Position numbers and translations under genes: made by a program
The notes under the pieces: generated by a model
The model's database searches: none
Seen by the model: the letters and a program-made list of their open reading frames with translations, nothing else
Told to the model about the DNA's origin: nothing
Shown: piece after piece, positions 595 to 27,371 of the stretch
Position numbering within the stretch: the stretch's first letter is position 1
Layout: every line of letters starts with the position of its first letter
DNA from: a virus
Direction: 5' to 3' (one strand)
Length of the DNA stretch: 29,574 bases
IMG/VR virus record: IMGVR_UViG_3300045135_002105
Span: 1 to 29,574 of that record

Positions 595-3500
595 TTATAC
601 TTTTACATTGTTAGCAGATTTTTCCCACGGTAAATGTTTATGGCCTTCGTTATAAGCAACCCCATCATAAATTATTTTTTTATCAGGTGTTCTTGGATAA
701 GCATTACCATTCCAATAAACATTTTGGGCATCATAATTTAACTTACCGGATTTCATATCAGCAATGTGCTTTTTTTCGTGCGCTAATACCTCTTTCTTTT
801 TTTCTTTAGAAAGTCCTGGTGCTAATTGAATTGTACCGTCTTTATGCGCTTTACCTAATACACCTTGCGGTAATGCCTCTTTTTTAAATATAGGCGTAGT
901 TGATTTTTTCTTTTTCTTTTTAGCTGCCGCAGGTTTTTTTGTTTCAATACCTAATTGATAAGGACTCCACCCTAAGCTTAACAAAATATTTTGCCAAGCC
1001 GCGTTTTTATCCATATCAATAGCTTTTAAGTTTTCCGCTTTTTTAAAGGCTCTATCTAAAGGCACATTAGCTATTGCAGCTGTGTAATTTGCAATTGCAA
1101 ATCCTTGATAAAATGGGTCGTTTTTATATTGTCTCCAATTTTCAAATTTTTGTGCTTCTACAATATCACCAATTTTTTTACTTACAGGTGGCGATATTGT
1201 AAGGCCAGCCTGTATTAAGCCTAAAGCAGGATCATATACTCTTTTACCATCTTTACGCTTTTGATATTGATCGTAGTATTCCATACCAAGGTTTTTAAGC
1301 GCAGCAATTACAGCACCTGAATAACCCATACCTCTTAAAAATCCATCTAAAAGTCCGTTAGCAAAATAACCTAATTGTTTTTCGGCTTTTTCGTCATCAT
1401 CATCATCAGATAATAATAAACTAAATATTGCACTTTGTAAACCAGAAAATATAATATTTTGGGCAGCACCATAATAAATTATTTTAGATGCATTTGTTTT
1501 CCAGTCCCCTCTACCGTTAATTAAATCAAGCGTTGCTTTTTTAGTTTCACGAGCATATTGTAGAGGTGTATTTGCAAATGCTAATATAAACCTTCCAATT
1601 TCAGAGGCTTGTTGTCTAGAAATTTTATCTGGTCTAGATGATTGCTGGGATGTTTCTGCTACTTCTTGAAATTCAAGCATAGCTTGCTCTTTAGCTTCTG
1701 TTTCATTCATTCCTTGTTTTACTAACTGGTTTATCTTATTTCTATACCAGCTAGCACCTCCAAATGAAATAGCAAAGCTATCTCCCCATTGCGTAGGTTT
1801 AAATCCTAATTCTAAAAGTTTTTTATGCGTTCTTAAAAACCAATTTCCAGGTTCTGAATCAGCAAGATCAGCGGTATTAATTTCAATTTTTAATCCGCCA
1901 CGACGTTCAGTTAAAAATGTAGAATTCCAAAGCTCAACAAAATCACTGCTAAATTGAGGCGCATTTGCCATAGCTTTAGCCATCATAAATGGATTATTAA
2001 AGCTCCAATTCATAAAGTTAACAATAGATAACTGCTGAAGAACCGCGGATCTAAGGTTTATAGCCATAACGTTTGCTACAGATTGATTAATCCAATTCAT
2101 AGCAGCATTAAACTCTTTATCTTTACCTTTTTTACGATTTACGCCAGTCTCCATGCGCTCTAAAACATTCTTCAATGCATCCGTAAAATCATTACCATGC
2201 ATCTGCTTTATAAGCGTCATATTTATATCAGAAAATATTTGGTTTTTATTATTAATAAATTCTGTTAAAAATAGCTTCCTTTGTGCTTTATTTGAAACGT
2301 TGGCTAAGTCTGTTTGAATATTCCCACCTAACCAGTCTTCAGTTATAGGAGGGTATCCTTCAGGTACTTTTGTTATTTTAGCAAGATCATCAGCAAAAGC
2401 TTTTAGCTCTGAATTACCATTTACAATAGCAACTAATCCAGCTGCATCAGCTTTATTTAATCCTAAATCATAACCTGCTTTTTCATACAAATAAGCTCTA
2501 ATAGCTTGTTCATTAGTATATAAACCATCAAGAACTTTTTGTTTTAAAAGCTTTTTATTTTTATATCTTTTCTTTAATGATTTATAATCTCTAACTAATG
2601 ATACTTTTGCTGCTTCATATGCTGCAATGCCTTTAGCAAAAGGTGTCATTAAATTATCTTGGAAAAACTTCATTTGAGCTTCCCCTATTGAGCCACGACC
2701 TAGGAATGTGTATAGCAATCCCATGAAATCATCCGCCCCAGGAGGAACATATATATTAATTTTTCTAAATAAAGAACCTTTAGTTGGTTTTTTAGATCTT
2801 AATATATTATCCATTTCATCTTCAAGCGAAGGAGCTTCAGCTTCTTTAGCAACTTGTACTTTCTTTTTTACGCCTAAATCAGTAAGCATTTTATCTACAG
2901 CAGCTACATTTTTAGGAGCATCATCAGCAAAGAATATATCATTATAACCTTCTGAAACTTTTTCCGCCATCCAAAATGCTTTTGCACTTGGCTTGCCGTC
3001 ACCTAATCCAGTTATATTTTCTAAAGGTATACTTATCCCTAAAGCTGATCGTAAAAAACTTTGTATTGCTTCTGCTGCGTTAGCAGGTCTAGCTGTTAAT
3101 ACAAATACATCCCGATCACCTTTTGCTTCAGTTAGTTTTTTAGCAAGAACAGCAAGAGGGCCTTTCTTACCTTCTTTAACTTGACTAAATTCAGAAAAAT
3201 CAAATTCAGCTCCAGCTTCCGTAAGCTCTTCAGAACGAGCTGCAAATTCTGTTGCTGATAAAGTACCAGAAGTCCCGTCTGGAAGCGTATAAAGCACGTT
3301 AGATTTGCTCTGCGCAAGTGTATCATCAAAGTCAAATACCCTTGCTTTCTTTTTAGGAGCTTTTTTATCTAATGCAGCATTTCTTGCTTTTCTTAAAGTG
3401 TCTAATTTATTATTTATTTCTTCTGTTGATAGCCCTTCTGTTTCAACGCCAAGATCTTTTAATAATTTTTCACTTTGTTTTCTAACTTGCTCTTGAGCTT

Positions 3501-6500
3501 GCGCAACGCCAGCCTCATTTAGTATGGCTAACCTTACTTGTGCAGGAGTTTTTTCATTTGTTATTTCTTTAATAGCTTGATTAGCAAATTCTAGCCACTC
3601 AAGCTCTGTCATATAATTTTTAACAAATTCATATCCAGCATCAATAGCTTTTGCAATGTTTTTACCGGTTTTATATGTAACCTTAATAGCTCTTAATCCG
3701 CCGATTAATACATTTAAACTAACATCTTTTGCGGCTAATATTAAAAACGGATCTATAGCTAAACCTTTTGTACCCGTAAGTTCGCTAAGCTTAGCAATGG
3801 CTCTATCAATAACAAATTCAACTTTATCTTCTAAAACAACATTATTCCCCGCTTTAATAGCATCAGGTGTTGAGGGGCTCTCTACATTTGTTTCTTGAGC
3901 TAATGTTTGTCCGCTTTCTATATTTTCTATTGAATTTAAATCAATACCAGCAGCAGCAAATCTAACAGATGGGTTATCAAATATACTATAGCCAGCAGGC
4001 AAAGTTGCATCTAATTTAGCATTATCAAGCTGTTCATCTGCTTTTTTAGAAAGCTGAGTTTGATAATAATTTTCTTTTATTTTTTCAAGAACGCCCGCTA
4101 TTTGATTATTTTTTAAGCCCCAAATAATGCTAGCACCAACTACAGAAGAAGGTGGGTTATGCTCTTCTCTAAATAGTCTTCCTGTAGCTTGTTTTAAGCT
4201 TTTCCCGTATTCAAATATTTTTGATTTATATTTAAAAGGAGCAGCAACCTTTATTAACCCTGTTGTAGTTGCATAAGAATTATAAATAAAAGTAGAGGCT
4301 CTTTCTACAGATATTTTTTTAGCTTTAACAAGAAAATCTAAATGCTCCGCAAAATAAATTAATGCGTTCATGTTTTCTTGCTCTTGCAAATTGTTTTTAT
4401 TTTTCCAATTAGAATCAATTTCTTTTTTAGGAATTGTAATTCTTTTTATTTTAAATTCCTTGCCTTTCCAGTTTTGTTTAGCGGCGTTTGCGGCTTTTAA
4501 AAAAGCAGGATCATTTTTGCCATAGTATAAGCTAAATAGTTTTGGTTTTTGTAATCTTTCGCCTGTTTTAATATCTTTAGCTCTCCCATGAAACGCAAAA
4601 TTAGCGGCTCTACTAATCATCCAAGGCGCTAAGTCCCCGTTTTCTGCTAAATTTTGAATTTCGTCTTGGATACTTTTTCTATTTGAATCGTTTATAACAA
4701 CGTCTTCCTTTAATCCGTTTAATTTTATAACTTCATTTATAGATCTAGCTTGAGAAATTTCATTTAAATTAGCAATATCTTGATTTGCAGCTCCCGATAT
4801 TTCAGCTACAATGTTTTGTTTAAGCTCATTTAAATCTACAATTTTATTTTTTAAATCCTCATTAGTGTTAAGTATTTTAACAGCTTGTGAAGCAGCTACA
4901 GAAACAGCAACAGCATCTTTAAATCTATTTTGTCTATTTGATCTAGCTTGCTTAGTTAGCGAAGCTTCTGTAAAATAGTTTATTAAATTATCAACATTTA
5001 TATTTTTAAATGCAACTTTTTCTAATTTGCCATTTTTTTCAATAAGCATACCAGCTTCTTCAAATGGGTTGATCCCATCTTTACCGCGAGCCATTCGCAT
5101 TCCTTCAGCAGTTAAAATATTATAAAAAGCCTCTGGATTAGATTTAATTTTATCACTAAAATCTTTTTTAGTTTTAGTATCCTTACCCATGAATTCATAA
5201 ACCTGGTCTTTAAACTTAGTTATAAATCCACCCGAAATATCTTTTTTAAATGATTTAGTATCTGGGTTATAATTTTTTAATAATTCTCTTGTTACTTCTG
5301 CTTCATCAAATTTTAATCCTAGTGCTTTAGCAGAGTCAATCATTTCTTGTGCTTCTTCAACAACCATTTCGGTTTTCATTTGAGAATCAATAGCAGCAGT
5401 TGCATTATCTATATTTTCTTTAAATGATTGATCAAACATCTCATTATTAAATCGCATTGCTCTAAGATTGCCGCGGCTACTTAAAAAAGCGTCTAATCCT
5501 TGCTTTTCAGGATCAAACTCATTTTGTATGAGCATAACCATATTGGTCTTTGTGTCCTGAATAAATTTTTTTCTGTCTCCATACGATGCTTTTAAATCAT
5601 CTGGAACAGGATCATATAATCTTTTAGCTATTGATTCAACAATACCCCCCATAGCGCTTTGAAATTCTAAAACAGCCTTATTAGATATTGTTTCGCCTTT
5701 TTTAATATTGTATTTATCATAAATAGCTTGAAGCTTAGTAAAGCTTTTTGTTTTACCTACTAATTTACTTTTTTGTCTTTGGTAATTAGCCTGAAGCTCT
5801 TTATATCTACTATCGTATTCTTGTTGGCTAATCTTTAAGCTGGGATCTTTTGTATTTAATAATTCTAATAATTCTCTACTTTTATTTACAAAATCTAAAC
5901 TAACTTTTTTAAGACCACTAGCCGACGAAAAATCATTACCCACGAGTCCCATAGCGCTTGGCACGGAGTAAGCTAATTGTGCTTGTCTATTTTTTATTTT
6001 AAGATCAAGCATAGCTAATCTTTCAGGGTCTTTAACACCCTTTTTTATTTCTTGTAAATTTTTAATTTCATTATTTAGCAGCTCAATTCTTTTATTAAGG
6101 TAATCGTCTCTTGTTAGACCTTTGCTTTTAGCTAATTCAAATGTACTTCTTTCTAAACTAACGGGATCATAATTATTTTCATTAGCAGATTGTAAGATAG
6201 TGTCTTTTCTTTCTATTAAAGAGTTATATTTTTCATTTAAAGGCTGTATTGCTAAATCATAAGCATTTTTTGTTTTAGAATTATTAGAAATTTCAGCCGC
6301 ATCTAATCTTATTTTGCCAATTTCAGAATTAAGTTTTATTAATTCTTCTTTTTGACTTACTGTAAGATTATCAATATTATTTAAATCTTTTGCTAAATAC
6401 TTTACTTGTTTTGTTTTAATATCATTAACAGCATTAGCTAAATATTCTAATTGCTTTTTATCAGCAGGATCGCCTTGATTTAGCTTGCTCATTTCTTGAT

Positions 6501-8469
6501 TTAGGCTTTCTATAATTTGATTGCCTCGAGCTATTTCTAATTCAGTATCACGAGATCTAAATGGGTTAAATACTTGCTTAAATATTAAAGGTGCTTTAAA
6601 TATACCCGCGCTCATGACCGCTCCCGATGCAAAAGCATCTATTAATCCCCTATCAAGGCTAATATCTTTGTCAAGCATGAAAGCATCCACTAAATTTTCA
6701 GACGCCTGCGCAATAACCTCCGAGCCTCCTTCTTGTATAATACCTCCAGCAACGCCTTTAGCCGTTACTCCTTTTACATAGTTTGTAACAGCTTCTTTAA
6801 AAGAAGGTGATTTTTTAAAAGCAGATTTTAAAACATTTAATTGATTAAATGTAACTCTTTCACTCAAGGCTTCTGCAGTACCAACAATAGCGGGAGCAGC
6901 AAATAGTTGACCTCTTGAATAAGAAATTAATGGATTTTTATCCATTTCTCCCATCATTTCTGCATACTTACTACCCGCTGTAGTTGCTCCCATTGCCCAT
7001 AATCCAGCTGTACCACCCGTTGCAGCTAATGTACCAATTATAGGTAATTGATTACCTACTAAATTACCAAACCAAGTCCCAAGATCACCCAATCCATCAA
7101 GCTCTTCAACGCTTTTATCTCTAGCTAATCCACCTCGTATTTCTTGACCCATGCCAGATAATAGCTTTCCTAGCATTAATCCGGATTCTTCAAAATTACC
7201 TAAGTTTACATTTTCTTCAGTAATTGCATCAATACCGCCTTCAATAGCACTAAAAATATATGCGGGAATATTCAAAAGACCTCCCCCTAATTCGTAAGTG
7301 CTAGCAATTGTTCTGCCTACTATATTTGAAACTGTTCCGTAATCTTTTCTTATTATATCATTAATTTCATCTGCTTTATCAAGCTTTTCAATAGCCTTAG
7401 CTAGCTCTTTATCTGTGTTTTGAAATTCTTTATTAATATAAGAAGCTTTACGTGTTACATTTTCTTGTATAGCTTTATATTCGTCAAGCTCTTTTTCATT
7501 TTTTAAAACTACATTGTTTAATTTACCAACATAATCTTTTATTTTTTGAGCTTCTTCTTGTATTACTTTATTTTTTATTAAAGTATTTCTGCTATCAAGA
7601 TTTCCTACATCAGAAAGACCTTTAGCAATTTTACCTTCTTCTTTTAAAAGCTTTACTCTATTTTTAGATTTTTCTGCAATATTTTCAATATTTAAATTGA
7701 ATTTTTTATTTCTTTTATCTTCAATATAATAATCTTCTGCTAGATTATAAATTTCATTATCAGAAATTATTGCATCAACTGCTTTATTGGCTTTTAAATC
7801 TTTTTCTGCTTTATTTAAAAAAGATCTTTTATATGCATCAGCTTCTAATAATTGGCTGGATAAAAATTCACCAGTTTCTTCATCAGGCATAGCACCAAAT
7901 GCAGTTGTTTTGGGATTTTCATAATAAGATTTAAATTCTTGCCTAGCAGCTTCCTCTTCTTCTTTTTTTAATACTTGCGCTTTAGCCTCTTGCCCTGTAG
8001 CAGTTAAAAAAGGATCTTCTGCATATTCATTTACAAATTTACCCTTTTTAAATTGATATTGCAAATACTTTTGTAAGTCTTCTTCGGAATTAATATTTAA
8101 GCTTTTGTTTTCAAATAGCTCTTTTTTACTTACAATATATTCACCTTCAAAATCTAAATTACCAGGTATTGTTCCTTTTTCTGCACGAAATATATATTTT
8201 TTATCAGCTTCTTGTTGTTCTTTTGCTATTCTATTTGGAAGAGTTTCCTCTAGTGATTCCAAAAAACCACCTTCCCGCTGCAAATCCATAACGTTTTGCC
8301 CCACTGCAGGTGCAGCTTCCTCCGCAGCAGGTTCCATCTTTTTTGTTTCTTCTTGTTCTTCGCCTACTGTTGCTATTAATTCAGCATTAGGATTTTCTGA
8401 TAAAAACTTTTGTTCTCCCGATGGGTATACATGATAATCCTGATCTTTTATTCTATAAATTTTATACAT
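595..8469 (-). CDS. Giant virion cargo/ejection protein with HAD phosphatase and zinc-peptidase domains
   Basis: 2624 residues, the largest gene here and probably packaged and injected with the DNA. Residues about 1-370 are charged and helical. Gly/Ala-rich hydrophobic stretches lie near 380-410, 463-497, 573-593 and 610-627 (for example GGIIQEGGSEVIAQASEN) and could insert in or cross a membrane. Residues about 640-1650 are mostly helical. A complete HAD-type domain follows (about 1708-1875): DFDDTL with D1713 and D1715, T1792 in VLTARP, K1826/K1830, and D1849-D1850 in FADD. Then comes a helical region (about 1890-2500) containing GRFILAFANTPLQYARE, which resembles the 'large polyvalent protein associated' domains of phage giants. 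A DDDDDE run (about 2355) and a Lys-rich linker (about 2510-2520) follow. The last domain has H2564-E-K-K-H2568 and PWE with E2616, a gluzincin-like zinc site. Position and size parallel T7 gp16. The overall role is inferred; both catalytic signatures are visible. Confidence 0.85.
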   Translation of the reverse strand: MYKIYRIKDQDYHVYPSGEQKFLSENPNAELIATVGEEQEETKKMEPAAEEAAPAVGQNVMDLQREGGFLESLEETLPNRIAKEQQEADKKYIFRAEKGTIPGNLDFEGEYIVSKKELFENKSLNINSEEDLQKYLQYQFKKGKFVNEYAEDPFLTATGQEAKAQVLKKEEEEAARQEFKSYYENPKTTAFGAMPDEETGEFLSSQLLEADAYKRSFLNKAEKDLKANKAVDAIISDNEIYNLAEDYYIEDKRNKKFNLNIENIAEKSKNRVKLLKEEGKIAKGLSDVGNLDSRNTLIKNKVIQEEAQKIKDYVGKLNNVVLKNEKELDEYKAIQENVTRKASYINKEFQNTDKELAKAIEKLDKADEINDIIRKDYGTVSNIVGRTIASTYELGGGLLNIPAYIFSAIEGGIDAITEENVNLGNFEESGLMLGKLLSGMGQEIRGGLARDKSVEELDGLGDLGTWFGNLVGNQLPIIGTLAATGGTAGLWAMGATTAGSKYAEMMGEMDKNPLISYSRGQLFAAPAIVGTAEALSERVTFNQLNVLKSAFKKSPSFKEAVTNYVKGVTAKGVAGGIIQEGGSEVIAQASENLVDAFMLDKDISLDRGLIDAFASGAVMSAGIFKAPLIFKQVFNPFRSRDTELEIARGNQIIESLNQEMSKLNQGDPADKKQLEYLANAVNDIKTKQVKYLAKDLNNIDNLTVSQKEELIKLNSEIGKIRLDAAEISNNSKTKNAYDLAIQPLNEKYNSLIERKDTILQSANENNYDPVSLERSTFELAKSKGLTRDDYLNKRIELLNNEIKNLQEIKKGVKDPERLAMLDLKIKNRQAQLAYSVPSAMGLVGNDFSSASGLKKVSLDFVNKSRELLELLNTKDPSLKISQQEYDSRYKELQANYQRQKSKLVGKTKSFTKLQAIYDKYNIKKGETISNKAVLEFQSAMGGIVESIAKRLYDPVPDDLKASYGDRKKFIQDTKTNMVMLIQNEFDPEKQGLDAFLSSRGNLRAMRFNNEMFDQSFKENIDNATAAIDSQMKTEMVVEEAQEMIDSAKALGLKFDEAEVTRELLKNYNPDTKSFKKDISGGFITKFKDQVYEFMGKDTKTKKDFSDKIKSNPEAFYNILTAEGMRMARGKDGINPFEEAGMLIEKNGKLEKVAFKNINVDNLINYFTEASLTKQARSNRQNRFKDAVAVSVAASQAVKILNTNEDLKNKIVDLNELKQNIVAEISGAANQDIANLNEISQARSINEVIKLNGLKEDVVINDSNRKSIQDEIQNLAENGDLAPWMISRAANFAFHGRAKDIKTGERLQKPKLFSLYYGKNDPAFLKAANAAKQNWKGKEFKIKRITIPKKEIDSNWKNKNNLQEQENMNALIYFAEHLDFLVKAKKISVERASTFIYNSYATTTGLIKVAAPFKYKSKIFEYGKSLKQATGRLFREEHNPPSSVVGASIIWGLKNNQIAGVLEKIKENYYQTQLSKKADEQLDNAKLDATLPAGYSIFDNPSVRFAAAGIDLNSIENIESGQTLAQETNVESPSTPDAIKAGNNVVLEDKVEFVIDRAIAKLSELTGTKGLAIDPFLILAAKDVSLNVLIGGLRAIKVTYKTGKNIAKAIDAGYEFVKNYMTELEWLEFANQAIKEITNEKTPAQVRLAILNEAGVAQAQEQVRKQSEKLLKDLGVETEGLSTEEINNKLDTLRKARNAALDKKAPKKKARVFDFDDTLAQSKSNVLYTLPDGTSGTLSATEFAARSEELTEAGAEFDFSEFSQVKEGKKGPLAVLAKKLTEAKGDRDVFVLTARPANAAEAIQSFLRSALGISIPLENITGLGDGKPSAKAFWMAEKVSEGYNDIFFADDAPKNVAAVDKMLTDLGVKKKVQVAKEAEAPSLEDEMDNILRSKKPTKGSLFRKINIYVPPGADDFMGLLYTFLGRGSIGEAQMKFFQDNLMTPFAKGIAAYEAAKVSLVRDYKSLKKRYKNKKLLKQKVLDGLYTNEQAIRAYLYEKAGYDLGLNKADAAGLVAIVNGNSELKAFADDLAKITKVPEGYPPITEDWLGGNIQTDLANVSNKAQRKLFLTEFINNKNQIFSDINMTLIKQMHGNDFTDALKNVLERMETGVNRKKGKDKEFNAAMNWINQSVANVMAINLRSAVLQQLSIVNFMNWSFNNPFMMAKAMANAPQFSSDFVELWNSTFLTERRGGLKIEINTADLADSEPGNWFLRTHKKLLELGFKPTQWGDSFAISFGGASWYRNKINQLVKQGMNETEAKEQAMLEFQEVAETSQQSSRPDKISRQQASEIGRFILAFANTPLQYARETKKATLDLINGRGDWKTNASKIIYYGAAQNIIFSGLQSAIFSLLLSDDDDDEKAEKQLGYFANGLLDGFLRGMGYSGAVIAALKNLGMEYYDQYQKRKDGKRVYDPALGLIQAGLTISPPVSKKIGDIVEAQKFENWRQYKNDPFYQGFAIANYTAAIANVPLDRAFKKAENLKAIDMDKNAAWQNILLSLGWSPYQLGIETKKPAAAKKKKKKSTTPIFKKEALPQGVLGKAHKDGTIQLAPGLSKEKKKEVLAHEKKHIADMKSGKLNYDAQNVYWNGNAYPRTPDKKIIYDGVAYNEGHKHLPWEKSANNVKV

Positions 8470-8471
8470 AA

Positions 8472-10058
8472 TTATTTAACAGTAATAGGTTGTTTCCAAG
8501 TTTCATTATTTAAAGCGGCTATTTCTTTCATTAAAAATTCAACATTTTTAATTCTAGACGGATCAATTACTCTTTTTTTCTTTTGATCTTTCATTCCTGC
8601 TTTTCCTAATAAATAGTTTCCTTCTTCATCCAAATCAATAAAATATTTTTCTGGCCCTGATTGTAAAGCTGATTTTATTCTATCTATATAAGGGTCAGTT
8701 GAGCTAGCAAGTTCTCTAGGATCTCTTGATAGCCCTCCAACAGGAGTTGCCATAATTTGATTATAAATTTGCGTAAGCCCTATTGAGTTGCCTTTAGATG
8801 TGCTTTCTTTTAATTTTTTTGCGTAATCTAGTTTAGCAGATTCAAGTTGGTATTGTGCTTTTTGTGCATTAGCAGCATCTTTTTGTTGCTGTAATTTAGC
8901 TTCTTTTTCAGCTGCTTCTGCTTGGTCAATTATTTCTTGATTTTTATTTAAAGCGGCATTTATAGTTTTTTCTTTCCATTTAGGTTTTAAAACGTCATCA
9001 ATAAATTCATCTAATCTATTAGCTTTTTTTAATTCATCAATGCCTCCACCTACGGTTTTTAGCCCTAGCCCCAAATCATCTTCTTTTTTACCCAATTTAT
9101 TTCCTAAGCTTGATATTAATGCTAATTTATCTACAGAGTTAGCTGCATCTAATATATATTGTTTTATCCCTGCAGCTTTATCGCCCTGGCCTAAGCTTTT
9201 TAAATAAGTATCAAAGCTTTCTTCAGCAAGAGTATTTACCCATTCTTTAACGTTGCCCTTTTCATCGTATATTTCTTGTATTTGCGGTTGAAATTTGCCA
9301 TCAACCATCTTTGATCCTGTATTAGCTTTTTTAGTATCAATTATATTCGCAACATCAGCTTTTATTTGATCATCAATTTTTGTTTTAGGCTTTTTTAATA
9401 TTTCAGGCAACTCTTCCATTCTATTAAGAGCAATTTGTAAAGCTTCTTCTTTCCCGTCTGGGGTAATCCAATTTCCTAAAAATTCAACTTTACCACTATC
9501 AGTAACATTAAATTCCATATTTACATCACCTCTAACCATAGCCGACATAAATTCTTTTGTTTTAGAATCTATAGTATCTGATAAATTTCCAGCATCAATA
9601 CCTTCCATATACTGATCAATTTTACCTAGCCATACTTTTTCAGCCGACTTAAAAGCACCCACCTGTGATTCAAGCATACTTACTCCTTTTGCGTAGTCTG
9701 CTGCGGTTACTTGTCCGTTGTCTCTTAATTTTTTTAAATCATTTAGTTTATTAACTATTTTTTCTGAAAAATCAACGCGAGAATCTTTTATGGAATTTGC
9801 TTCAACCTCATCTGCCGGTAAAATTAATCCCGTTTCAGTTGCTTTATCTAATTTTTGTAAAGCTAAAGCATCTGCAATTTTACCTCTATTTCTTTCTTCT
9901 AAGTCAACTTCAAGTTGTTTGCTTTTTAAAATATTTTGACCAATCATTTGACCAAATTGCATACCTTGCTCTATGCCTTCATTTATAGCTTTTAAATCTT
10001 CTACATAAGAAGGACCATAATATGTTGGATCAAACCAACCTAAACCTGTATTAGCCAT
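8472..10058 (-). CDS. Middle cargo/ejection protein candidate (528 aa)
   Basis: 528 residues, mostly charged and probably helical. There is no membrane segment and no recognisable enzyme motif. The N-terminus carries WFDPTYYGPSYVEDLKAINEG, then long helices. A strongly coiled-coil-like part near residues 370-420 is rich in Ala, Glu, Lys and Gln (EAAEKEAKLQQQKDAANAQ). The start codon overlaps the stop of the 398-aa gene (TAATG), and its own stop is two bases before the 2624-aa gene, so the three are coupled. Sitting second in a membrane-segment / helical / giant trio, it corresponds by position to T7 gp15 or to a crAss-like cargo protein. This assignment rests on context only. Confidence 0.7.
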   Translation of the reverse strand: MANTGLGWFDPTYYGPSYVEDLKAINEGIEQGMQFGQMIGQNILKSKQLEVDLEERNRGKIADALALQKLDKATETGLILPADEVEANSIKDSRVDFSEKIVNKLNDLKKLRDNGQVTAADYAKGVSMLESQVGAFKSAEKVWLGKIDQYMEGIDAGNLSDTIDSKTKEFMSAMVRGDVNMEFNVTDSGKVEFLGNWITPDGKEEALQIALNRMEELPEILKKPKTKIDDQIKADVANIIDTKKANTGSKMVDGKFQPQIQEIYDEKGNVKEWVNTLAEESFDTYLKSLGQGDKAAGIKQYILDAANSVDKLALISSLGNKLGKKEDDLGLGLKTVGGGIDELKKANRLDEFIDDVLKPKWKEKTINAALNKNQEIIDQAEAAEKEAKLQQQKDAANAQKAQYQLESAKLDYAKKLKESTSKGNSIGLTQIYNQIMATPVGGLSRDPRELASSTDPYIDRIKSALQSGPEKYFIDLDEEGNYLLGKAGMKDQKKKRVIDPSRIKNVEFLMKEIAALNNETWKQPITVK

Positions 10059-11254
10059 TATTTATCTTTATTTAAAAATCCGCCTGCTGACAAAGCATTA
10101 ATACCTCCAGCCGCTGCTTGTGTAATACCGCCTAATAGCATATTTCTTTGTGCTTGATTAGCCGCCGCTTTAACTCCTGCCTCTTGAGATTTTAAACCTA
10201 AATTAGCTGCTAATCTATTATATTCAGCCGCTTGTATATCAGCAGCTCCTTGTGCTTGCAACCTTTGTGCCTCCATGCCCATTTGAGCGCCAAATTGTGA
10301 TGCTTGGTTTTGAGCTTGCATATTAGCTTGATTAAAAGCATTTTCGGCTTGGAATTCAGCCATTGTAAATTTATTTTGAGCATCTGCATTAAATCTATTC
10401 ATTTGAGCTTCTTGGTTAAATTTACTTAAAGCAAATTGATTAGCTGCTTGTGCTCCAAATTGAGATGCTCGATTTTGAGCTCCAGCTGTAAACTGAGCCG
10501 CTTGATTTGTTGAATTAGCACTAAATTGAGCTGCTTTATTAGCTTGCGCTACATTAAATTGCTCCTGGCCTAAAGCAAATTGAGATGACAAATTGCTTTG
10601 AGCTAATTGATCTCTTTGTAATTTCATTTCACCCTCTGCACGCCGCAATTCATTTGCTTTTACTTGTTGATCAATATTAGCAGCAATGCTTGCTTTTGAT
10701 TTTGCAGCAGCGGCAGCTAACGCCGTAGCTCCCCCAGCCCCTGTTCCAGCCTGAGCAGCTAAGTCTTGGGAGGCCGCTAAGGCTTGGTCTGCTTCTTGGG
10801 CAGCTAATTCAGCCCCAGCTGTAGAAACTTGAAGATTATTAAATTCATTTGTTAATCCCGTAGAGTCACCGCTTAATAATGCTCCAATATTAGTGCCCTG
10901 CGCTGTGTAACCTTGAGCTGTATAACCTGTAGAATCATAACCTTGAGCTTTACCTAAAGAAGGCATTTCAGCTGTTTGAGCTGCTCCAATTTGAGCTGCT
11001 TTTGCCGCTATAGGGTCATAAGAAGCTCCCTGCATTCCTTCAAAAGCATTTTTAAAATTATAATTTAAAACTTTTGATTCTGCTCTATTTTTTGCTTTTT
11101 CTGACTGTTCAGCAGCTTCTCTTTTTTTCTTTCTTCCGAATAAAGAGCCAATGCCTTTAATAATCCCTGGGGCTGCCCCCGCCGCTATAGCTATTAAAGG
11201 TGCTATTGAATAACTTATAGCTTCAACTAATGGTAAATGTACTATTTCTTCCAT
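10058..11254 (-). CDS. Internal virion protein candidate with N-terminal membrane segment and Gln/Ala repeats
   Basis: 398 residues. Residues about 13-37 form a hydrophobic Gly/Ala-rich segment (SIAPLIAIAAGAAPGIIKGI) followed by a basic cluster GRKKKREAAE, as expected of a membrane-inserting protein. The rest is extremely rich in Ala, Gln and Asn. Residues about 219-332 hold a degenerate repeat of the form NQAxQFxA / AQNxASQFGAQ, which should give a long extended helical bundle or coiled coil. The C-terminus is again Gly/Ala-rich (GGITQAAAGGINALSAGGF). It starts two bases after the 79-aa gene (TAA-AT-ATG) and overlaps the next start by one base. Order and design recall T7 gp14, which is ejected into the outer membrane. 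Function is inferred. Confidence 0.7.
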   Translation of the reverse strand: MEEIVHLPLVEAISYSIAPLIAIAAGAAPGIIKGIGSLFGRKKKREAAEQSEKAKNRAESKVLNYNFKNAFEGMQGASYDPIAAKAAQIGAAQTAEMPSLGKAQGYDSTGYTAQGYTAQGTNIGALLSGDSTGLTNEFNNLQVSTAGAELAAQEADQALAASQDLAAQAGTGAGGATALAAAAAKSKASIAANIDQQVKANELRRAEGEMKLQRDQLAQSNLSSQFALGQEQFNVAQANKAAQFSANSTNQAAQFTAGAQNRASQFGAQAANQFALSKFNQEAQMNRFNADAQNKFTMAEFQAENAFNQANMQAQNQASQFGAQMGMEAQRLQAQGAADIQAAEYNRLAANLGLKSQEAGVKAAANQAQRNMLLGGITQAAAGGINALSAGGFLNKDK

Positions 11255-11256
11255 AT

Positions 11257-11496
11257 TTATTGACTTGAATAAACAGCCTCAGAATTAATTGCAAATAATT
11301 CAGCTTTGTTAATTGATTTATCTGTCGGTAATTTAATACGTGTTCGCATAAATGTACCTTTTGTACCAGAAACAAGTTTAGTAGCATCAGCTACAATAGC
11401 TCCATTAGAAACTTTATATGTTGTTTCTTCTGAAACTATTGGCGCAAAATATTTACCTTCTTTTGCTTCAAAAGGAAATTTAATTATTGTACTCAT
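11257..11496 (-). CDS. Small protein after the muzzle gene, unknown function
   Basis: 79 residues, probably beta-rich, with no membrane segment or cysteine. Start MSTIIKFPFEAKEGKYFAP; the middle part reads like short strands (TYKVSNGAIVADATKLV, then GTFMRTRIKL). The ATG overlaps the muzzle stop by one base (TAATG), and the stop is two bases before the next gene, which argues strongly for a real coupled gene. A small tail or neck accessory protein is plausible from context, but I do not recognise the family. Confidence 0.65.
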   Translation of the reverse strand: MSTIIKFPFEAKEGKYFAPIVSEETTYKVSNGAIVADATKLVSGTKGTFMRTRIKLPTDKSINKAELFAINSEAVYSSQ

Positions 11497-14400
11497 TATG
11501 CATTTTGTGTTATACTAATTGTTTGATTAGCTACAGCAGAACCTGTTACGCGACTATTGTTATATTTACTAATTGTAATAGTAGCAGTTCTTTGTGACCC
11601 TGTAGTATTATCAGCTACATTAATTGTAAACGGATAATTTGATCCTAAAAAGTTAATACCATCAGGATCTACAACTTTTGTTCCAGGAGAACCGTTTATT
11701 AATACCCAGTTTTGATTAGCAGATATTTGTATTGGAATAGTTGCTCCATTAGAATTAGTTATAGAAGTATCTGGATCTCCAGAAGCTGCAAATGTAATTG
11801 AAGCTACATAAGTACCAACAGACGCAGTAACTTCACCAGATCCTGTTATTGTAGCAGTAGCTACAGTGTTTTCAAATATTTTAGGCAAAACAATTGTTTT
11901 TTCTAAATATTCTTGTGTAGAACTTTCAAGAACAGTAGTAATGCTATTTCCAACAACATCATAGCTTAACCCATGTCCATCCGGTAAGAACACCTTAGTA
12001 GTATCAGAAGCTGTCCATCTAAGTGTAGCTGTTCTTCTATCTACTGTGTCATAAGGCGTTGCATCATAAGCTACATTTATAGTAGTTGAGCTTGGTGTTG
12101 TTAATGTACCGCTAGCAGGCGTTGCCCAAGTTAAAGTAGGTTTGATAATTGCAGTTCCGCTAATTCCAATTGAATTGTTTGTTGCAACTGTTGGTACTGT
12201 TATTGGAAAACCTGCAGTAAGTCCGGTATTTGATATAGTTATATTAAACGGAACTATATTTGTGCCGCCACCCATATTACTATGATTGCTACAATAATAA
12301 TATAAAGTTGGTGTTGTAGAAGTAATTACAATTTGCGTATATGCTCCAGCACTTCCAGGTGTTCCGTTAGTTGTTACCCCAGTAGTATATTCAGTACCGC
12401 CCCCATGCGTTCCATTAGAAGTTGTACTAAATCTTAAAGGATGATTAACGTTTGAACTATCACTTTGATCAAATATATAAGTTTTACCTTTAGTAAGTGG
12501 AACAGTTGGCTGTTTTAAATCATCAATAGCGAAGGCATTACTGCCGTAGTTTCTAACAACAACTGTTTTAGTTTCTGTACCAGATATACCTGAAATATTA
12601 TATGAACCAAACGATGATGTATTAGCTACAATATTGCCCGGCTCTATATAATGAGTGCTTAGTGGTGTTACTAATATATCTAAATTTGTATCACCTGCAT
12701 TAGTAAATGTTGCTAAAGCGGGACTTACAGCAGCATTTGAAACAGAATCCCCAACGCTTATTGTTAAAAGATTTACTTCGTAAATAAGATCAGCACCAGT
12801 ACCAGAAATAGCTACTGTTTTTGTCTCATCAATAGTTCCAGCAGTGTAACTTATTAAAAATACCAAATTGCCATCTGTAATTGCTGATGGGCTTTGTATT
12901 GTTAACCCACTACCTGTTAGAATAATATCAGTAATTGAGTCAAATGAATAATCTGCGTTTTTAGGTTTTGCTGTAATTGTCCATTGAATTACATCATTTT
13001 CTTTTGCATATATAGATCTTTCACCTACAATAACGCTATTATTAGCGGCTCCTGATAACTGTAATGATATTAAATTATAATTATCTAAAGCTGGAGCGTT
13101 GCCAACAGATCCTAAATCAGTTTCTAAAAAATCAAGCTCCCATCCATCAGTTCCTTCATAGCTTATATTATTAAAGGTTTTAACTGTTGATGGATTGTCA
13201 TTTAATATAGGCTCAATATATGATTCATTAGCAGACCCGCCGTAAAACGTATTTCTATTTACAGTGTCTTCATTATGTTTCCATAATTTACCATTTTTGA
13301 AAGTATAATAAATATTATTTAAACTTATACCCCCTTCTTGTTCAAAGGATTTAAAACTAGTCCAACCTTGCGAGCCTTCATCAAATGATATTGTAAAATA
13401 ATTATCAGAAGCAGTTGCTACATTTGTATCTTTAAATCCACTAAATCCTTCCCCTATAATTGTTAAATGATAAAGACCTTGATATTCATCATAAGAGCCA
13501 ATAATATCTGTTGATTTTTTTAATGCGTCTCTAAAAAAGTCACTCATACCATTTCTAGATATTTCAACTAATCCATTTTGTGATAAACGCATTACAGATC
13601 CTCGGTTTTTATCTGTAAAGTATTTGGCATAGCCATAATAAGCAAAAGACTTTGCGTCTTTTGAGATACCAAATTCACCAGCATATGGTGCTATTGTTCC
13701 TAAAAACTTTGTGCTTGTAGTAACAGGTATAGCCCCGCCTTCAGCTGAAAATATAAAATCTTTATCTATAGGGGATCTTGAAATTTTATCTTCCTGGAAT
13801 ACAACTACTTGCGTATCATCAGCAAATAGTTTTTGTATTGATCCGTCCTGAGGGTCTAAAGAAATAGTAAGCCCACCCTCGGATTCATTAAATTGATTTA
13901 TATAATTTATATTTGTTCTTGAATTAAATAAACCACTCGAATGAATTAAAGTATTAAATCTTCTTTCTTCAGCAAAGTTTTCTTTTACTAAATATGCTCT
14001 TACTCCAACATCAAATGCTTTTTCATTATATCCAGCGCGTAATCTATTTATTTCAATATGAGCACCAGAACTGAATGTTAATAAGTAGCAATTGTAAAAT
14101 TGAATATCTATAGCTGTTGTTGTTAAGCTTGATATTAATCCCCCTGTAGACGTTTCATAAAATATGTCTAAGTCAGAAATAACTGGTTCAGTTTCAAAAA
14201 CACAAATTCCACTAGTAACTCCATCTGTAGGCACGGTTGCATTTCCAGAAGGATTTGCAATAGACTGCACTTTTGTAAGGCTAGATGTTGTTTTATTTAC
14301 ACCATTTAAAATTTTAGGATATACAGATACATTACATGGTGATATACTTGTTCCTGTACTTGGAGGTATAACAGCTGTTTGATCTCTTGGTATTTTATTT

Positions 14401-15827
14401 ATACTATCCCCTAAGCGAACAACCGTGTTTAAAGATGTAATACTAGAAATCCAGTTATAGTACTCTTGTTCTCTTTGTTTTACTACTATTCTATATGAAT
14501 AACACCAATCTAAAGCTTGTAATGCATTAATTGAAGCCTGTGAAAATGCTATACGCAACGAGTTAAATGCAGTAGTGCTGTCAGCTTCCCCAGTAGATGC
14601 ATCAATAAATACTGTATCACCACCTGTTTCAGATAAAAGTACAGGTGTTTGTCTACCAAATTTATCAGCTAAAACTACACCAACCTGGTATGTTCTACGT
14701 GATTTTACAGACATAGCTTCATCTAAAGCGGCATACCTAGAAGAGGCTTCCCCAGTTCTTGTTACTGTAAAAGATAATGTTGGAATATTATAGTTTTGTA
14801 AATAATTACCATATATTAGTCTTCCACCAGCTAGCTCTTGTGATTTAGCCTTACGAGGTACTGAATCATACACACGTGTTAGCTGATCGCTAGGTAATGT
14901 TTTAAATGGGTCTTGAGATTTGTAAAAGAAGTTAACAGATGTTTCTGTTGTTACAATCTTTTTTTCAACAACATAAAGAGCATTTGATCCTGTTTCTTTA
15001 TATATTAGTTCAACTTTTTGTATCCCATAATTTGACGGTGTTGGCACAGAGAGCTGTACCGATTTGATAGCATTAACAAATGTTTCAATTTCACCAAAAT
15101 CATTTATATTTGATGATATTGTGTCAACATTATCTAATCTTGAAAAGCATACTGGTGTAAAAGGGGCCAATACGCTATATTCACCATCTTCAAATTGGTA
15201 TCTATAAGAAAATCTAATTAATTTGTTTTCTAAAAAGTTTGATGTAATAGGATCACCATTTTCATCAACATCAGATACACCAACAATTGTTGCTGCATTA
15301 TATGGAGCATATTTTGCTACTGATATTAAATTATCAATATCTGATGCTAAATTATAATAGCTTGCGTTGTTTTTTGCGGTTTCTACGTTTATTTTTCTAG
15401 GCGGATTACGATCATCTGTCCAAAACAATAGTTTATCTACTAGATTAACCCCTGTTATTGGATAATCTTGATGAAAGTTTAAAGCCGTACTGTTTACTAT
15501 TATAGTTGATTTATTTGCTTTTTGATCGTATTCAATTATTTGGTGTGAGCCAGAATTAATATGGTTATACGAATCATTGCTGGTAATGAAATAGTATATT
15601 TTTTCATCACCATTGTCTCTATATTGCCCAATTGTTTTAGCATTAGATATACCTGTATCAACAATAAGCTTATTTCCTAATATATTTTCAACTGAGCCTA
15701 TATCTGAACTTTCTGACTTGCTAACATTTATATTTAATGCTTCTCGATATTCACCGGGCTTAAGCATTTTTTCATCTAAATCGCGATTCATTCGACTCGC
15801 GTTAAAGAGTCTTTTGATTTCTGGCAT
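11496..15827 (-). CDS. Tail muzzle / stabilisation protein with Ig-like, cupredoxin-like and BACON-like C-terminal domains
   Basis: 1443 residues. The N-terminus (FNASRMNRDLDEKMLKPGEY, then REALNINVS) and the early LLFWTDDRNPPRKIN motif match what I know of the large muzzle or stabilisation proteins at the distal tail of crAss-like phages. Residues about 40-900 look beta-rich and would form the hub. Beta-sandwich segments follow from about 950. Residues about 1100-1195 form a plastocyanin-like module: H1129 in NHPLRFS, then C1179-S-N-H1182-S-N-M1185, the arrangement of a type-1 copper site. Residues about 1350-1443 resemble a BACON domain: QNWVL around W1374, GSQRTATITIS, and a final ISITQNA. 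The start is three bases after the upstream stop. The role is inferred from similarity and gene order; the domain motifs are directly visible. Confidence 0.8.
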   Translation of the reverse strand: MPEIKRLFNASRMNRDLDEKMLKPGEYREALNINVSKSESSDIGSVENILGNKLIVDTGISNAKTIGQYRDNGDEKIYYFITSNDSYNHINSGSHQIIEYDQKANKSTIIVNSTALNFHQDYPITGVNLVDKLLFWTDDRNPPRKINVETAKNNASYYNLASDIDNLISVAKYAPYNAATIVGVSDVDENGDPITSNFLENKLIRFSYRYQFEDGEYSVLAPFTPVCFSRLDNVDTISSNINDFGEIETFVNAIKSVQLSVPTPSNYGIQKVELIYKETGSNALYVVEKKIVTTETSVNFFYKSQDPFKTLPSDQLTRVYDSVPRKAKSQELAGGRLIYGNYLQNYNIPTLSFTVTRTGEASSRYAALDEAMSVKSRRTYQVGVVLADKFGRQTPVLLSETGGDTVFIDASTGEADSTTAFNSLRIAFSQASINALQALDWCYSYRIVVKQREQEYYNWISSITSLNTVVRLGDSINKIPRDQTAVIPPSTGTSISPCNVSVYPKILNGVNKTTSSLTKVQSIANPSGNATVPTDGVTSGICVFETEPVISDLDIFYETSTGGLISSLTTTAIDIQFYNCYLLTFSSGAHIEINRLRAGYNEKAFDVGVRAYLVKENFAEERRFNTLIHSSGLFNSRTNINYINQFNESEGGLTISLDPQDGSIQKLFADDTQVVVFQEDKISRSPIDKDFIFSAEGGAIPVTTSTKFLGTIAPYAGEFGISKDAKSFAYYGYAKYFTDKNRGSVMRLSQNGLVEISRNGMSDFFRDALKKSTDIIGSYDEYQGLYHLTIIGEGFSGFKDTNVATASDNYFTISFDEGSQGWTSFKSFEQEGGISLNNIYYTFKNGKLWKHNEDTVNRNTFYGGSANESYIEPILNDNPSTVKTFNNISYEGTDGWELDFLETDLGSVGNAPALDNYNLISLQLSGAANNSVIVGERSIYAKENDVIQWTITAKPKNADYSFDSITDIILTGSGLTIQSPSAITDGNLVFLISYTAGTIDETKTVAISGTGADLIYEVNLLTISVGDSVSNAAVSPALATFTNAGDTNLDILVTPLSTHYIEPGNIVANTSSFGSYNISGISGTETKTVVVRNYGSNAFAIDDLKQPTVPLTKGKTYIFDQSDSSNVNHPLRFSTTSNGTHGGGTEYTTGVTTNGTPGSAGAYTQIVITSTTPTLYYYCSNHSNMGGGTNIVPFNITISNTGLTAGFPITVPTVATNNSIGISGTAIIKPTLTWATPASGTLTTPSSTTINVAYDATPYDTVDRRTATLRWTASDTTKVFLPDGHGLSYDVVGNSITTVLESSTQEYLEKTIVLPKIFENTVATATITGSGEVTASVGTYVASITFAASGDPDTSITNSNGATIPIQISANQNWVLINGSPGTKVVDPDGINFLGSNYPFTINVADNTTGSQRTATITISKYNNSRVTGSAVANQTISITQNA

Positions 15828-23617: not shown

Positions 23618-25846
23618 TTATTTAATTAGCACACTTCTGTCTCCTTCATTCTTATATCTTGAGAATGAAAAATTAAGTTTTTTTGTTGATCTTTCTTGTC
23701 TTGGTCTATATAAATGTTTTCTGCAAGCCATTATTGCAAGGCCGCTACTAATTGACGCGTCATGCGCTGTTCGTTTTGATATATCAAATTTGGCCCAATC
23801 TTCAAGTGTTCTTTGAAAATACATATTTCCATAGCTATCACCAAGATTACCAACATTTTCTTCTATATAAGATTCAATAGCAGCAGCATGAGCTTGCCGT
23901 ATATCTTCTGATGTATTTGGTATACCTCCAAGTTCAGCTTCTGTTTTTGATAATGCTGCCCGTAATTTATCTGGGCGGTTCATAGAAAAACCTCTATAAC
24001 CTCTTCTTTTAAAATGATATAATAATCTAGGTTTGTTATTTTCTGCAAGTATTGCCATGCCATAAAACACTGTAGCCATTAATACATCTTCAAAAAATAT
24101 TTCAGCTGTTTGTGGTCTAGCAATATATTCTAAAAAAAACCTGCTTGACGGAAAATCGGGATTCATTGAAAACGTTGTTAAACCGTGCAATGCTCCATTA
24201 GAACCGCCCCCTCCAACTGTACCAGATATATCATATGAGTCACATCCAAAATAACCAAAGCCTTCATTGCCTGGATATTTTATTCCATTTTTTTCAATTA
24301 CATTATTTCTTAATTTAGCTTTTGGTAACCAGCTTACTAAAAATCTTCCACTTCTATTTGGTGTCCAAATAACTTCTGAATCTTTTATACCGTTTTTCCA
24401 AGAAAAACTTCCGCGAACAACATAACCGTTCATTGCCATTTCTTCATTATGGTCAATTTGTTCGTATATTTTTGTTAAATTAAATAATGAGTTTAAAGTT
24501 TCATCTCTAAACGCATGCTTTTCGCTTCTTGGAAATTGTCTATAATATTCATTTAAAGCATCTGCGTCATTTTTTAATCCTTCAACTTCGTTTTCCCAGT
24601 GTTCAATAACTCCTGTAGTGATAGTATCCCCGCTAATTCCTTCAACCGCTTCTGATGGTGTATTGAAGACAGGATAGCCATACTTATCAATGAATCCCTC
24701 GTATCCCCATTCCATAGGTATGAACAAAGAGTATAATCCACTTGCAGTCTGGCCATTCTTATTTCGTTCTCTAACGTCTGAGCCATAATAAAGTTTTTTA
24801 AAGTTATCGCCACCTTTGTCTAAAGCATTAGACGTAGAACCCATCATACATTTGCCAACAACTCTTGCCCCTAAGCGTAAACACGTTTTAGTTACACGCC
24901 AGTTGTTAAGAATGTTATCAGGCCGCTCCCATTTACCAGATTCATCATGCACTAATAAAATTAATTTTTCACCGTCATAACTATTGTCTCCAGTATTTTT
25001 CCAATCTATTGTAGTATCAAGGCCTTGACCTGCTAGTTCGTCGTCACTTTCTTTAAATGAATTTCTAGTAAGTCTTCTTGATGGAACTTTATATGACAAT
25101 TCTGTTTTAGGCCGTTCCATACCATCTTGTATTGGCTTAAAAAAGAAGGGATAATTAATAGATATTGGAACTACTTTATCGGTAAACATTTTTTTTGCAT
25201 CGCCTCCTGTTTTTGATAAAATACCAAATCTTGAATCTCTTGAGGTTGTTGCAATATTAACAGTTTCTGATGATGCCATAAAGCTAAAGCCAGACCGTCT
25301 ATTTTTGAGGTAGCACATTCCGTAACACCTATCGTCTGCTTTGCACGCTTCCCAGAAGTAATAAAATATTCTGTTTGCTTGCCTAAAGTCTGGTGCTCCA
25401 ACATCAATCTTTGTCCAGTTGAGGTACATATAATGTGATCCTGTAATATAACAGGGTTCACCATTACACATAAACCAATAGCCGTCATTACGCCTATTAA
25501 ACTCAGTATCAATATACTGGTAATAGTTTTCTTTAACTTCTTCTGGCTGATGTTTAAAATCGTGTACAGATTTAATTTTTCTTAATGATTCTGGTCTTTC
25601 CCTTCTTTTAAATACCTGATCTGTTTTTTTTAAATTTTGACCATCTATTTTTTCAGGGGTTTGAGGTATCGCCACCTTAAGACCTTGAATCTCATATATC
25701 TCACCAATTGTACCGTCTTTACTTATTATAACACAATCAAGATCTTCGTTATAACCGTATTTGTACTTTTTGCTTTTGTTATTTTTTTTAACCTCTTTGG
25801 TATCAACGTGGTCTATAATTATATTGTAGAGTGTTTGCTTATACAT
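23618..25846 (-). CDS. terL: Terminase large subunit (packaging ATPase and nuclease)
   Basis: 742 residues; it drives ATP-dependent packaging of DNA into the prohead and cuts the concatemer. The ATPase signatures are a deviant Walker A, KNRRSGFS (181-188), a Walker B, LILLVHDE (295-302, with acidic D301 and E302), and a coupling motif GST (336-338). The nuclease has an RNase H-like layout: D536 in FGCDSYD, E602 in AILAEN and D696 in TAHDAS as probable metal ligands. The ILSKTGGDAKKMF and SGLYSLFIPMEWGYEGFID segments are what I expect of crAss-like TerL proteins. The start overlaps the 83-aa gene stop by one base (TAATG). Confidence 0.93.
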   Translation of the reverse strand: MYKQTLYNIIIDHVDTKEVKKNNKSKKYKYGYNEDLDCVIISKDGTIGEIYEIQGLKVAIPQTPEKIDGQNLKKTDQVFKRRERPESLRKIKSVHDFKHQPEEVKENYYQYIDTEFNRRNDGYWFMCNGEPCYITGSHYMYLNWTKIDVGAPDFRQANRIFYYFWEACKADDRCYGMCYLKNRRSGFSFMASSETVNIATTSRDSRFGILSKTGGDAKKMFTDKVVPISINYPFFFKPIQDGMERPKTELSYKVPSRRLTRNSFKESDDELAGQGLDTTIDWKNTGDNSYDGEKLILLVHDESGKWERPDNILNNWRVTKTCLRLGARVVGKCMMGSTSNALDKGGDNFKKLYYGSDVRERNKNGQTASGLYSLFIPMEWGYEGFIDKYGYPVFNTPSEAVEGISGDTITTGVIEHWENEVEGLKNDADALNEYYRQFPRSEKHAFRDETLNSLFNLTKIYEQIDHNEEMAMNGYVVRGSFSWKNGIKDSEVIWTPNRSGRFLVSWLPKAKLRNNVIEKNGIKYPGNEGFGYFGCDSYDISGTVGGGGSNGALHGLTTFSMNPDFPSSRFFLEYIARPQTAEIFFEDVLMATVFYGMAILAENNKPRLLYHFKRRGYRGFSMNRPDKLRAALSKTEAELGGIPNTSEDIRQAHAAAIESYIEENVGNLGDSYGNMYFQRTLEDWAKFDISKRTAHDASISSGLAIMACRKHLYRPRQERSTKKLNFSFSRYKNEGDRSVLIK

Positions 25847-26869: not shown

Positions 26870-27214
26870 CTAGTAAGTCCAAATTGTTGTTTCAGGTGCT
26901 CCAGGATAACCAATACCCACATGCACAAAATTGCTTTTTCTTGATATGCCTATTCTTTTAAAGCCAACTTCTATAGCGGCTTTAACTAATCTAAAGGTTG
27001 CTTCACCTCCTACGCATGCAATATCAACAGCTGCGCCATGCGCATGTTCTCCAGGCTTTGCTTTTTTAGCTTCAATAGGATGTTCCGGACTTCTGTATGT
27101 AGATGTTAATTTAATTGGAAAGCCGTAAACTTCTCTTAGATTATCAAGCATATCTAAAAGCTTTGGATCCATTTTATCAAATTCATTAAATTCAGATTCA
27201 TTAAAGTATTTCAT
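26870..27214 (-). CDS. M15-type peptidoglycan peptidase (endolysin)
   Basis: 114 residues, the normal size of a single-domain peptidase M15 of the D-Ala-D-Ala carboxypeptidase / L,D-endopeptidase type (Peptidase_M15_3-like). The zinc motif is complete: GEHAHGAAVD places H57 and D64 in the HxxGxAxD pattern, and FVHVG gives H98. A probable catalytic Glu is in AIEVGF (E82). The STYRSPEHP segment before the motif is also typical. There is no signal peptide, so it needs a holin, and the two preceding genes encode membrane proteins. It would cut cell-wall peptides at the end of infection. It starts four bases after the 50-aa membrane gene. Confidence 0.88.
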   Translation of the reverse strand: MKYFNESEFNEFDKMDPKLLDMLDNLREVYGFPIKLTSTYRSPEHPIEAKKAKPGEHAHGAAVDIACVGGEATFRLVKAAIEVGFKRIGISRKSNFVHVGIGYPGAPETTIWTY

Positions 27215-27218
27215 TATA

Positions 27219-27371
27219 TTAATTTTTAAGTTTACTATGTATATTAATTAAAGTATAAATAATTGTTAATAATAAAACCCCAGTTTGTAATAAGGGATTT
27301 AAACCTTCTGCCAACGGCGAGCTTGCTAATAATGCTGTTATATTTATACCGTATATTTTTAAATCTGTCAT
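27219..27371 (-). CDS. 50-aa single-span membrane protein in the lysis cassette
   Basis: A short gene that minimum-length gene callers would miss. The sequence begins MTDLKIYGINITALLASSPL and has one hydrophobic helix at residues 27-44 (LQTGVLLLTIIYTLINI) followed by a basic tail HSKLKN. Its ATG overlaps the holin-like stop as ATGA (27371-27368), and its TAA is four bases before the endolysin ATG. This tiling of an otherwise empty 153-base gap is strong evidence for translation. Likely roles are a second holin, an antiholin or a spanin-like partner. The short C-terminal tail makes a true i-spanin unlikely. No family is recognised. Confidence 0.72.
   Translation of the reverse strand: MTDLKIYGINITALLASSPLAEGLNPLLQTGVLLLTIIYTLINIHSKLKN

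Follow-up and report, generated by a model that had tools for sequence, protein, structure and literature searches.

T7 and N4 are podophages whose largest ejection protein, encoded beside two smaller ones, reaches the inner membrane or the cytoplasm (PMC8954989, PMC12633501). In crAss001, the three genes that follow the muzzle gene (gp45, gp46 and gp47) specify virion cargo, located inside virions by mass spectrometry (PMC10172136). Phage-type polyvalent proteins, in turn, combine several disparate domains in one large chain, and a zincin marked by an HEXXH helix and a Glu in a later helix is one of the domains described for them (Iyer et al. 2017, PMC5512222). Can a single protein belong to both kinds? 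We analysed a window of 29,574 nucleotides, a viral stretch from IMG/VR record IMGVR_UViG_3300045135_002105, in which the minus strand is open throughout from 8469 to 595 and specifies a protein of 2,624 amino acids, while the plus strand over the same span is full of stops. Relatives of this polyvalent, ejection-type giant are 44-71% identical to it. We consider it probable that the giant combines two roles, as the large ejection protein of an Elemovirus/Pervagoviridae/Pachyviridae-type podophage and as a polyvalent protein, with a hydrophobic module that would contribute to a membrane channel, a HAD phosphatase that would heal 3' ends and a terminal zincin that would release the parts.

In a cluster read leftward, the giant is the most distal large gene; the order is fibre-type protein, holin-like protein, M15 peptidase, terminase large subunit (TerL; 23618..25846, minus strand), portal, capsid candidate, ring-type proteins, muzzle, a 398-aa protein, a 528-aa protein and the giant itself. 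The muzzle/nozzle protein (11496..15827, minus strand) carries a crAss_MUZ_C match at residues 857-898. The 398-aa protein (10058..11254, minus strand) has a hydrophobic N-terminal segment at residues 7-35 and a weak similarity to phi40:1 gp099, which is annotated from MS/MS. The adjoining 528-aa protein (8472..10058, minus strand) is a conserved neighbour in the near clade and, judged by its position against crAss001 and phi40:1 gp100, would take the role of cargo protein 2 or of a T7 gp15-type protein. Near the terminase lie a protein with DUF7483, TIG and He_PIG domains (fibre-like, 27784-29442), the endolysin-like M15 peptidase (26870-27214) and a weak three-TM holin match (27368-27784).

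Which phage does this cluster belong to? The first-pass annotation had called it crAss-like, and that is true of the muzzle alone. TerL, which was used to place the phage, shares 62% identity with its counterpart in an uncultured Manatee Spring podovirus, 44% with those of Flavobacterium elemo phages and about 37% with those of Cellulophaga phages such as phi38:1; at 1e-5, it matched flavobacterial-type podophages only. The phages phi38:1, elemoF and MW202828 each have matches, in unchanged order, to TerL, portal, capsid, three further genes and the muzzle. Against the compared stretch of crAss001, from which the crAss001 TerL and portal fall outside, the muzzle gave the sole match, in keeping with its crAss muzzle C-terminal domain (E 1.2e-7), and the capsid candidate gave none by tblastn. 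As judged from TerL, portal and capsid, the phage is of the Elemovirus/Pervagoviridae/Pachyviridae type and falls outside the Crassvirales; it is a marine phage of flavobacterial type. Residues ~1020-1190 of the muzzle (12258-12770) match tail fibres of cyanophages, pelagiphages and methylophages, which suggests that its C-terminal tip domain may have been swapped. The end of the muzzle protein also shows a weak BACON match.

By position and size, although not by sequence, the giant fits the podovirus ejection class. Its gene closes the virion cluster, following the nozzle/muzzle gene in the company of genes for two smaller proteins, and the order terminase-portal-capsid-muzzle-smaller proteins-giant recurs in relatives and in crAss001, where gp45, gp46 and gp47 come after the muzzle. 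With T7 gp16, N4 gp50 and crAss001 gp47, it shares its place as a large protein beside smaller ones in an ejection cassette, its hydrophobic segments (weak in the giant) and an embedded enzyme; unlike in those proteins, neither an RNA polymerase nor a transglycosylase was identified in the giant, and sequence homology is not detectable. T7 gp16 and N4 gp50, each represented by a single sequence, gave chance-level scores against the giant in HMM and hhalign comparisons, and we dismissed both as homologues. crAss001 gp47 was likewise set aside, as no similarity was detected. Like the giant, gp47 has an HExxH motif, at 2157. The gp47 gene (L063:31120-38145), an 'RNA polymerase subunit' cargo gene that follows gp46, also encodes an N-terminal hydrophobic helix at 106-124.

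Evidence for a place in the virion comes from cultured relatives. GenBank records annotate phi40:1 gp097-gp101 and phi18:3 gp112-gp115, gp120, gp121 and gp123 from 'experimental MS/MS proteomics', and it is on this wording of the records that we draw; homologues of the giant, phi40:1 gp101 and phi18:3 gp123, are among the proteins so annotated. The presumed source of the Cellulophaga proteomics is Holmfeldt et al. 2013. Delivery at infection, as proposed in the first-pass annotation, thus agrees with a locus that is that of ejection and cargo proteins and with homologues annotated as present in virions. The same annotation had set delivery against a role solely as a tail structural component; this opposition is too sharp, because ejection proteins of podoviruses belong to the virion and are injected as well. 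For the window giant, packaging is argued from the homology of one module and from position, because isolates that carry the HAD version are not known. From its homologues, we infer that the giant is packaged along with the two smaller proteins whose genes lie immediately upstream, and by the example of crAss001, it would leave through the muzzle, ahead of the DNA or together with it.

Could the giant instead be an assembly or maturation protein that acts in the producing cell, as a core scaffold matured by its zincin, so that its enzymes are never delivered? Its gene does sit in a structural cluster, and autoproteolysis before packaging has been discussed for P1 DdrB (PMC5512222). We regard this as unlikely, in view of homologues annotated as detected in mature virions, of the crAss001 giant cargo proteins of the same locus that are inside virions (PMC10172136), and of invariant HAD catalytic residues that an assembly role alone does not explain.

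Searched as a whole against Pfam with HMMER, the giant showed no significant family, and with tblastn it had no match in cultured phages, because the hydrophobic module alone is common to both. This Gly-rich module, residues 390-635 (6565..7302, minus strand), lies in a variable N-part and was delimited by composition and by a profile HMM with reversed-sequence controls. It holds 35 Gly (14.2%, vs 6.4% overall) and 18% charged residues, and no 246-residue window outside it exceeds 24 Gly; the hydrophobic, Gly-rich stretch noted on first reading is thus borne out by Gly and charge composition. The module is common to the giants of phi38:1/phi40:1 (gp101), phi46:3 (gp120), phi18:3 (gp123), elemoF (gp18), Gundel_1 (gp074) and Panino. 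In small databases and with the first profile, E values were 2e-7 to 1e-14 for phi38:1/phi40:1 gp101, Gundel_1 gp074, elemoF gp18, phi46:3 gp120 and phi18:3 gp123, as compared to 0.05 or worse for the reversed-sequence controls. Giants of cultured flavobacterial podophages therefore resemble ours in this homologous module and, in most, in the locus (in Gundel_1 the giant gene gp074 precedes TerL, unlike in the window), but none has the HAD, and their HExxH is either internal (elemoF, Gundel_1) or absent; searches by sequence did not find the HAD half in cultured relatives. Hydrophobic segments of the giant are weak (612-630, 1571-1592 and 2335-2353, best Kyte-Doolittle ~1.5). The module is probably membrane-active: its composition and the analogy with T7 and N4 suggest that it, perhaps with hydrophobic C-terminal helices, would insert in the inner membrane as part of a DNA channel.

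Beyond the module, AlphaFold predicts long helices at residues 640-1140 (5050..6552, minus strand), which evolve fast and belong to no family, and a helical region with a small alpha/beta part at residues 1141-1690 (3400..5049, minus strand). The model of residues 381-1560 has a pLDDT of 58.5 overall and mostly 24-50 in the hydrophobic part; its fold matches were set aside for this low confidence. Modelling is mostly helical over ~640-1690 and again over 1885-2500, in keeping with the long helical regions reported earlier, and the roughly 1,000 residues between ~640 and 1650 that then had no family still have none, being helical with a small mixed alpha/beta part. Residues 909-1032 (5374-5745) show a weak likeness to a sigma-S fold (VIA Z 6.5, 3.6 A over 110), and a pattern there, FDPSK...L..F/Y, recalls sigma region 2. 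No sigma match was obtained in Pfam or PDB sequences, and we keep the sigma-factor-like fold as a lead only.

The HAD phosphatase, residues 1700-1880 (2830..3372, minus strand), is the only part firmly assigned as an enzyme. All motifs I-IV are present on a Rossmann-like fold (DFDDT 1713-1717, TAR 1792-1794, K1830 and DD 1849-1850), and the catalytic residues are invariant in all aligned relatives (30-34), so that the HAD domain first recognized by reading the sequence proves to be a complete phosphatase. What does it act on? PHROG_415, 'polynucleotide kinase', matches the window HAD with an E of 8e-4 and also matches 11 out of 15 relatives, with an E of 6.9e-9 at best. In the AlphaFold model of residues 1690-2624 (34 sequences, pLDDT 77.5), the domain takes a fold like that of the T4 Pnkp 3'-phosphatase: on re-alignment to solved structures, this enzyme came first (Z 13.7, 2.4 A, 127 residues), and the best seven solved matches (VIA) are all polynucleotide kinase-phosphatases, with other HADs at 11.7 or below. 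Sequence comparison was less telling. A HAD profile run against PDB sequences at E<=10 did not find T4 Pnkp, and in a direct profile comparison with it, motif I alone aligns well (hhalign 79%).

The residues required by the T4 Pnkp phosphatase are D165, D167, R176, R213, D254 and D278. Counterparts of D165, D167, R213 (R1794) and D278 are present in the window HAD; R176 is replaced by N1724 (Lys in most relatives), and D254 is not conserved. With these last two differences, the assignment of a Pnkp-type substrate is tentative. Like the T4 PseT 3'-phosphatase domain, the window HAD has the HAD fold and the DxDxT, TAR/SGR, Lys and DD motifs; unlike it, it has a larger insert after motif I, lacks D254 and has Asn for R176. 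The kinase of PseT is absent from the window protein but is inserted in some relatives. In four of these (L054 and L060-L062, e.g. L062:9260-10540), a P-loop kinase lies inside the HAD just after motif I (AAA_33, best E 6.1e-14), a kinase-phosphatase pairing as in Pnkp, which counts for end healing. The inserted kinase resembles polynucleotide kinases and zeta-toxin-type kinases and gives a nested kinase-phosphatase. Taken together, the fold, the match to PHROG_415, the arginine of motif II and the inserted kinases point to an action on nucleic-acid 3'-ends.

A HAD injected as an effector could instead attack or edit a host or defence molecule, such as a signal nucleotide, a phosphoprotein or the nucleotide pool, with no healing of DNA ends, in line with the disarming of host defences put forward in the first-pass annotation. 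Polyvalent proteins have been proposed to carry such activities (PMC5512222), relatives contain other modifying domains (a weak GNAT in Gundel_1), and Foldseek's own ranking in PDB, in which no E fell below 0.001, places the Legionella effector phosphatases Ceg4 and Lem4 highest. Upon re-alignment, however, Pnkp phosphatases (Z 13.7) outrank Lem4 (10.4) and Ceg4 (9.3), and the kinase insertion and co-occurrence with DNA ligase point to nucleic acid ends instead; we find the effector explanation doubtful.

Among 11 HAD-bearing contigs with lengths of 57-69 kb, nine (G002, G007-G010 and G012-G015) encode an ATP-dependent DNA ligase (258-314 aa); none of seven distinct complete or near-complete HAD-less relatives (elemoF, phi38:1/phi40:1 counted once, phi46:3, phi18:3, Gundel_1, Panino and MW202828) does. 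Five shorter HAD-bearing contigs (33-52 kb) showed no ligase, as fragments might. The exact test gives 0.001, uncorrected for relatedness, and the association is suggestive only, because the HAD-bearing contigs are relatives of one another; contigs may also be fragments. NAD-dependent ligase was absent from the records searched, and its positive control was detected.

The alternative that the phosphatase heals RNA, repairing tRNA cut by anticodon nucleases of the host in the way T4 PseT works with RNA ligase, draws on the T4 Pnkp-like HAD fold and on the T4 record, where tRNA repair in prr hosts is ascribed to PseT and RNA ligase. Yet RNA_ligase (PF09414) was absent from 13 related records, while its positive control was detected, and DNA ligase was found in its stead; we judge tRNA repair to be very unlikely and prefer the healing of DNA ends for this reason. 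A search with PF09511 gave no match, with its controls silent as well.

Under the preferred reading, the HAD would arrive on the cytoplasmic side, beside the incoming genome, and, as fold and context suggest, would most likely convert 3'-phosphate ends to 3'-OH, so that nicks and breaks could be sealed or primed. A more specific version can be put forward only tentatively: the ejection apparatus would bring its own 3'-phosphatase, with a kinase-like insert in some relatives, to the mouth of the DNA channel as a virion-delivered end healer, entry breaks and genome ends would be healed before expression, and the phage DNA ligase would then seal them. If the HAD does heal DNA ends, a virion protein would have the new function of repairing DNA on entry, ahead of phage transcription.

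The helical C-part, residues 1885-2500 (970..2817, minus strand), is conserved. It contains FANTPLQY (2298-2305) and the hydrophobic segment 2335-2353; GRFILAFANTPLQY, at 2292-2305, lies within the best-conserved part of the family. A part of this region is also present in Gundel_1 gp074 (E about 1e-12). Searched with Foldseek against predicted viral proteins, the 1690-2624 model returned 56 matches with E below 0.001, several of them named 'large polyvalent protein associated', 'PolyVal ADP-ribosyltransferase' or 'MuF C-terminal' and often extending over 750-900 columns at 10-17% identity. The polyvalent-named matches have TM-scores of 0.3-0.5, so that the agreement is one of arrangement and not of fine detail. 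By sequence, LPD Pfam models had no match in the giant or its relatives, and the LPD38 HMM was silent in the giant's family and in controls alike. The resemblance to 'large polyvalent protein associated' domains, which the first-pass annotation had read from the sequence, is therefore supported at the level of fold and was not found at that of sequence.

With HAD, HEXXH domain and hydrophobic module, several disparate domains are indeed joined in one large chain. The giant resembles the phage-type polyvalent proteins in its multiple activities, its zincin-like motif, the context of packaged proteins and the fold of its C-part; it differs in that the window giant has no LPD Pfam match. The words 'phosphatase' (at word start), 'haloacid' and 'polynucleotide kinase' are absent from the text of PMC5512222, and the conserved HAD is an addition to the polyvalent and ejection kinds that this text does not mention. 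Taken as a whole, the earlier interpretation keeps its layout of one chain with a Gly-rich hydrophobic module, long helices, HAD and a probable peptidase, its polyvalent character (C-part fold, and enzymes swapped among relatives) and its delivery, and loses the 'crAss-like' wording; its suggestion that such proteins disarm host defences stays a conjecture.

The chain ends in a zincin-like domain, residues 2538-2624 (598..858, minus strand), with HEKKH at 2564-2568 and E2616 as putative third ligand, both conserved in the eight near-clade sequences aligned. At the level of motif, an HEXXH helix and a Glu in a later helix are present (helices H866-885 and H925-931 of the 1690-2624 model). Its PHROG matches are PHROG_16532 (uncharacterised, E 4.5e-4) and, weakly, PHROG_87, a metallo-protease (E 0.07). 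The terminal peptidase of the first reading, for which motif and modelled helix speak, is here a probable zinc protease. By its motif, and following a proposal in PMC5512222, it would most likely cut the chain and free the modules.

How widespread is this architecture? Direct and profile scans of viral contigs yielded about 50 marine loci related to the giant, with complete relatives of ~2,470-3,810 aa and neighbours of the same kind; 84,980 bacterial and archaeal genomes, searched with the patterns used, contained none. Matches of Bacillus SPbeta to one distant relative (L020) had E values of 0.02 or worse and were taken as chance. Within the near clade, HAD and C-part are 69-93% identical, and identity in the hydrophobic part falls to ~20% in more distant members. 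In three pairs (Nei-Gojobori), dN/dS is about 0.04-0.19 for HAD and helical C-part and about 0.2-0.5 for most N-terminal regions; in two pairs, the hydrophobic module is an exception. Limited to the HAD and the main helical C-part, the range is roughly 0.04-0.13, with the HAD at about 0.1. HAD and main helical C-part are under purifying selection, beyond chance.

Between the common ends the contents vary: HAD in the window, a weak GNAT in Gundel_1 and DUF3293 in elemoF. In most of the distant clade (among L020-L062), HExxH with a later Glu precedes the HAD by ~1,000 residues, and the near clade has its HEXXH domain at the C-terminus, in surroundings unlike the internal one of the distant clade. 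Relatives exchange enzymes around one common frame, a conserved membrane/helical frame with different enzymes slotted in, and the giant links podovirus ejection machines with injected polyvalent proteins in a large group of marine phages that has scarcely been characterised. Three relatives (L016:10028-11020, L046:9977-11152 and L047:9977-11032) have another domain of ~130 residues in or after the HAD, with the pattern FSS..SR..LY...LGW. It lies within the HAD in one relative and at the HAD end in the others, as if hopping inside the protein.
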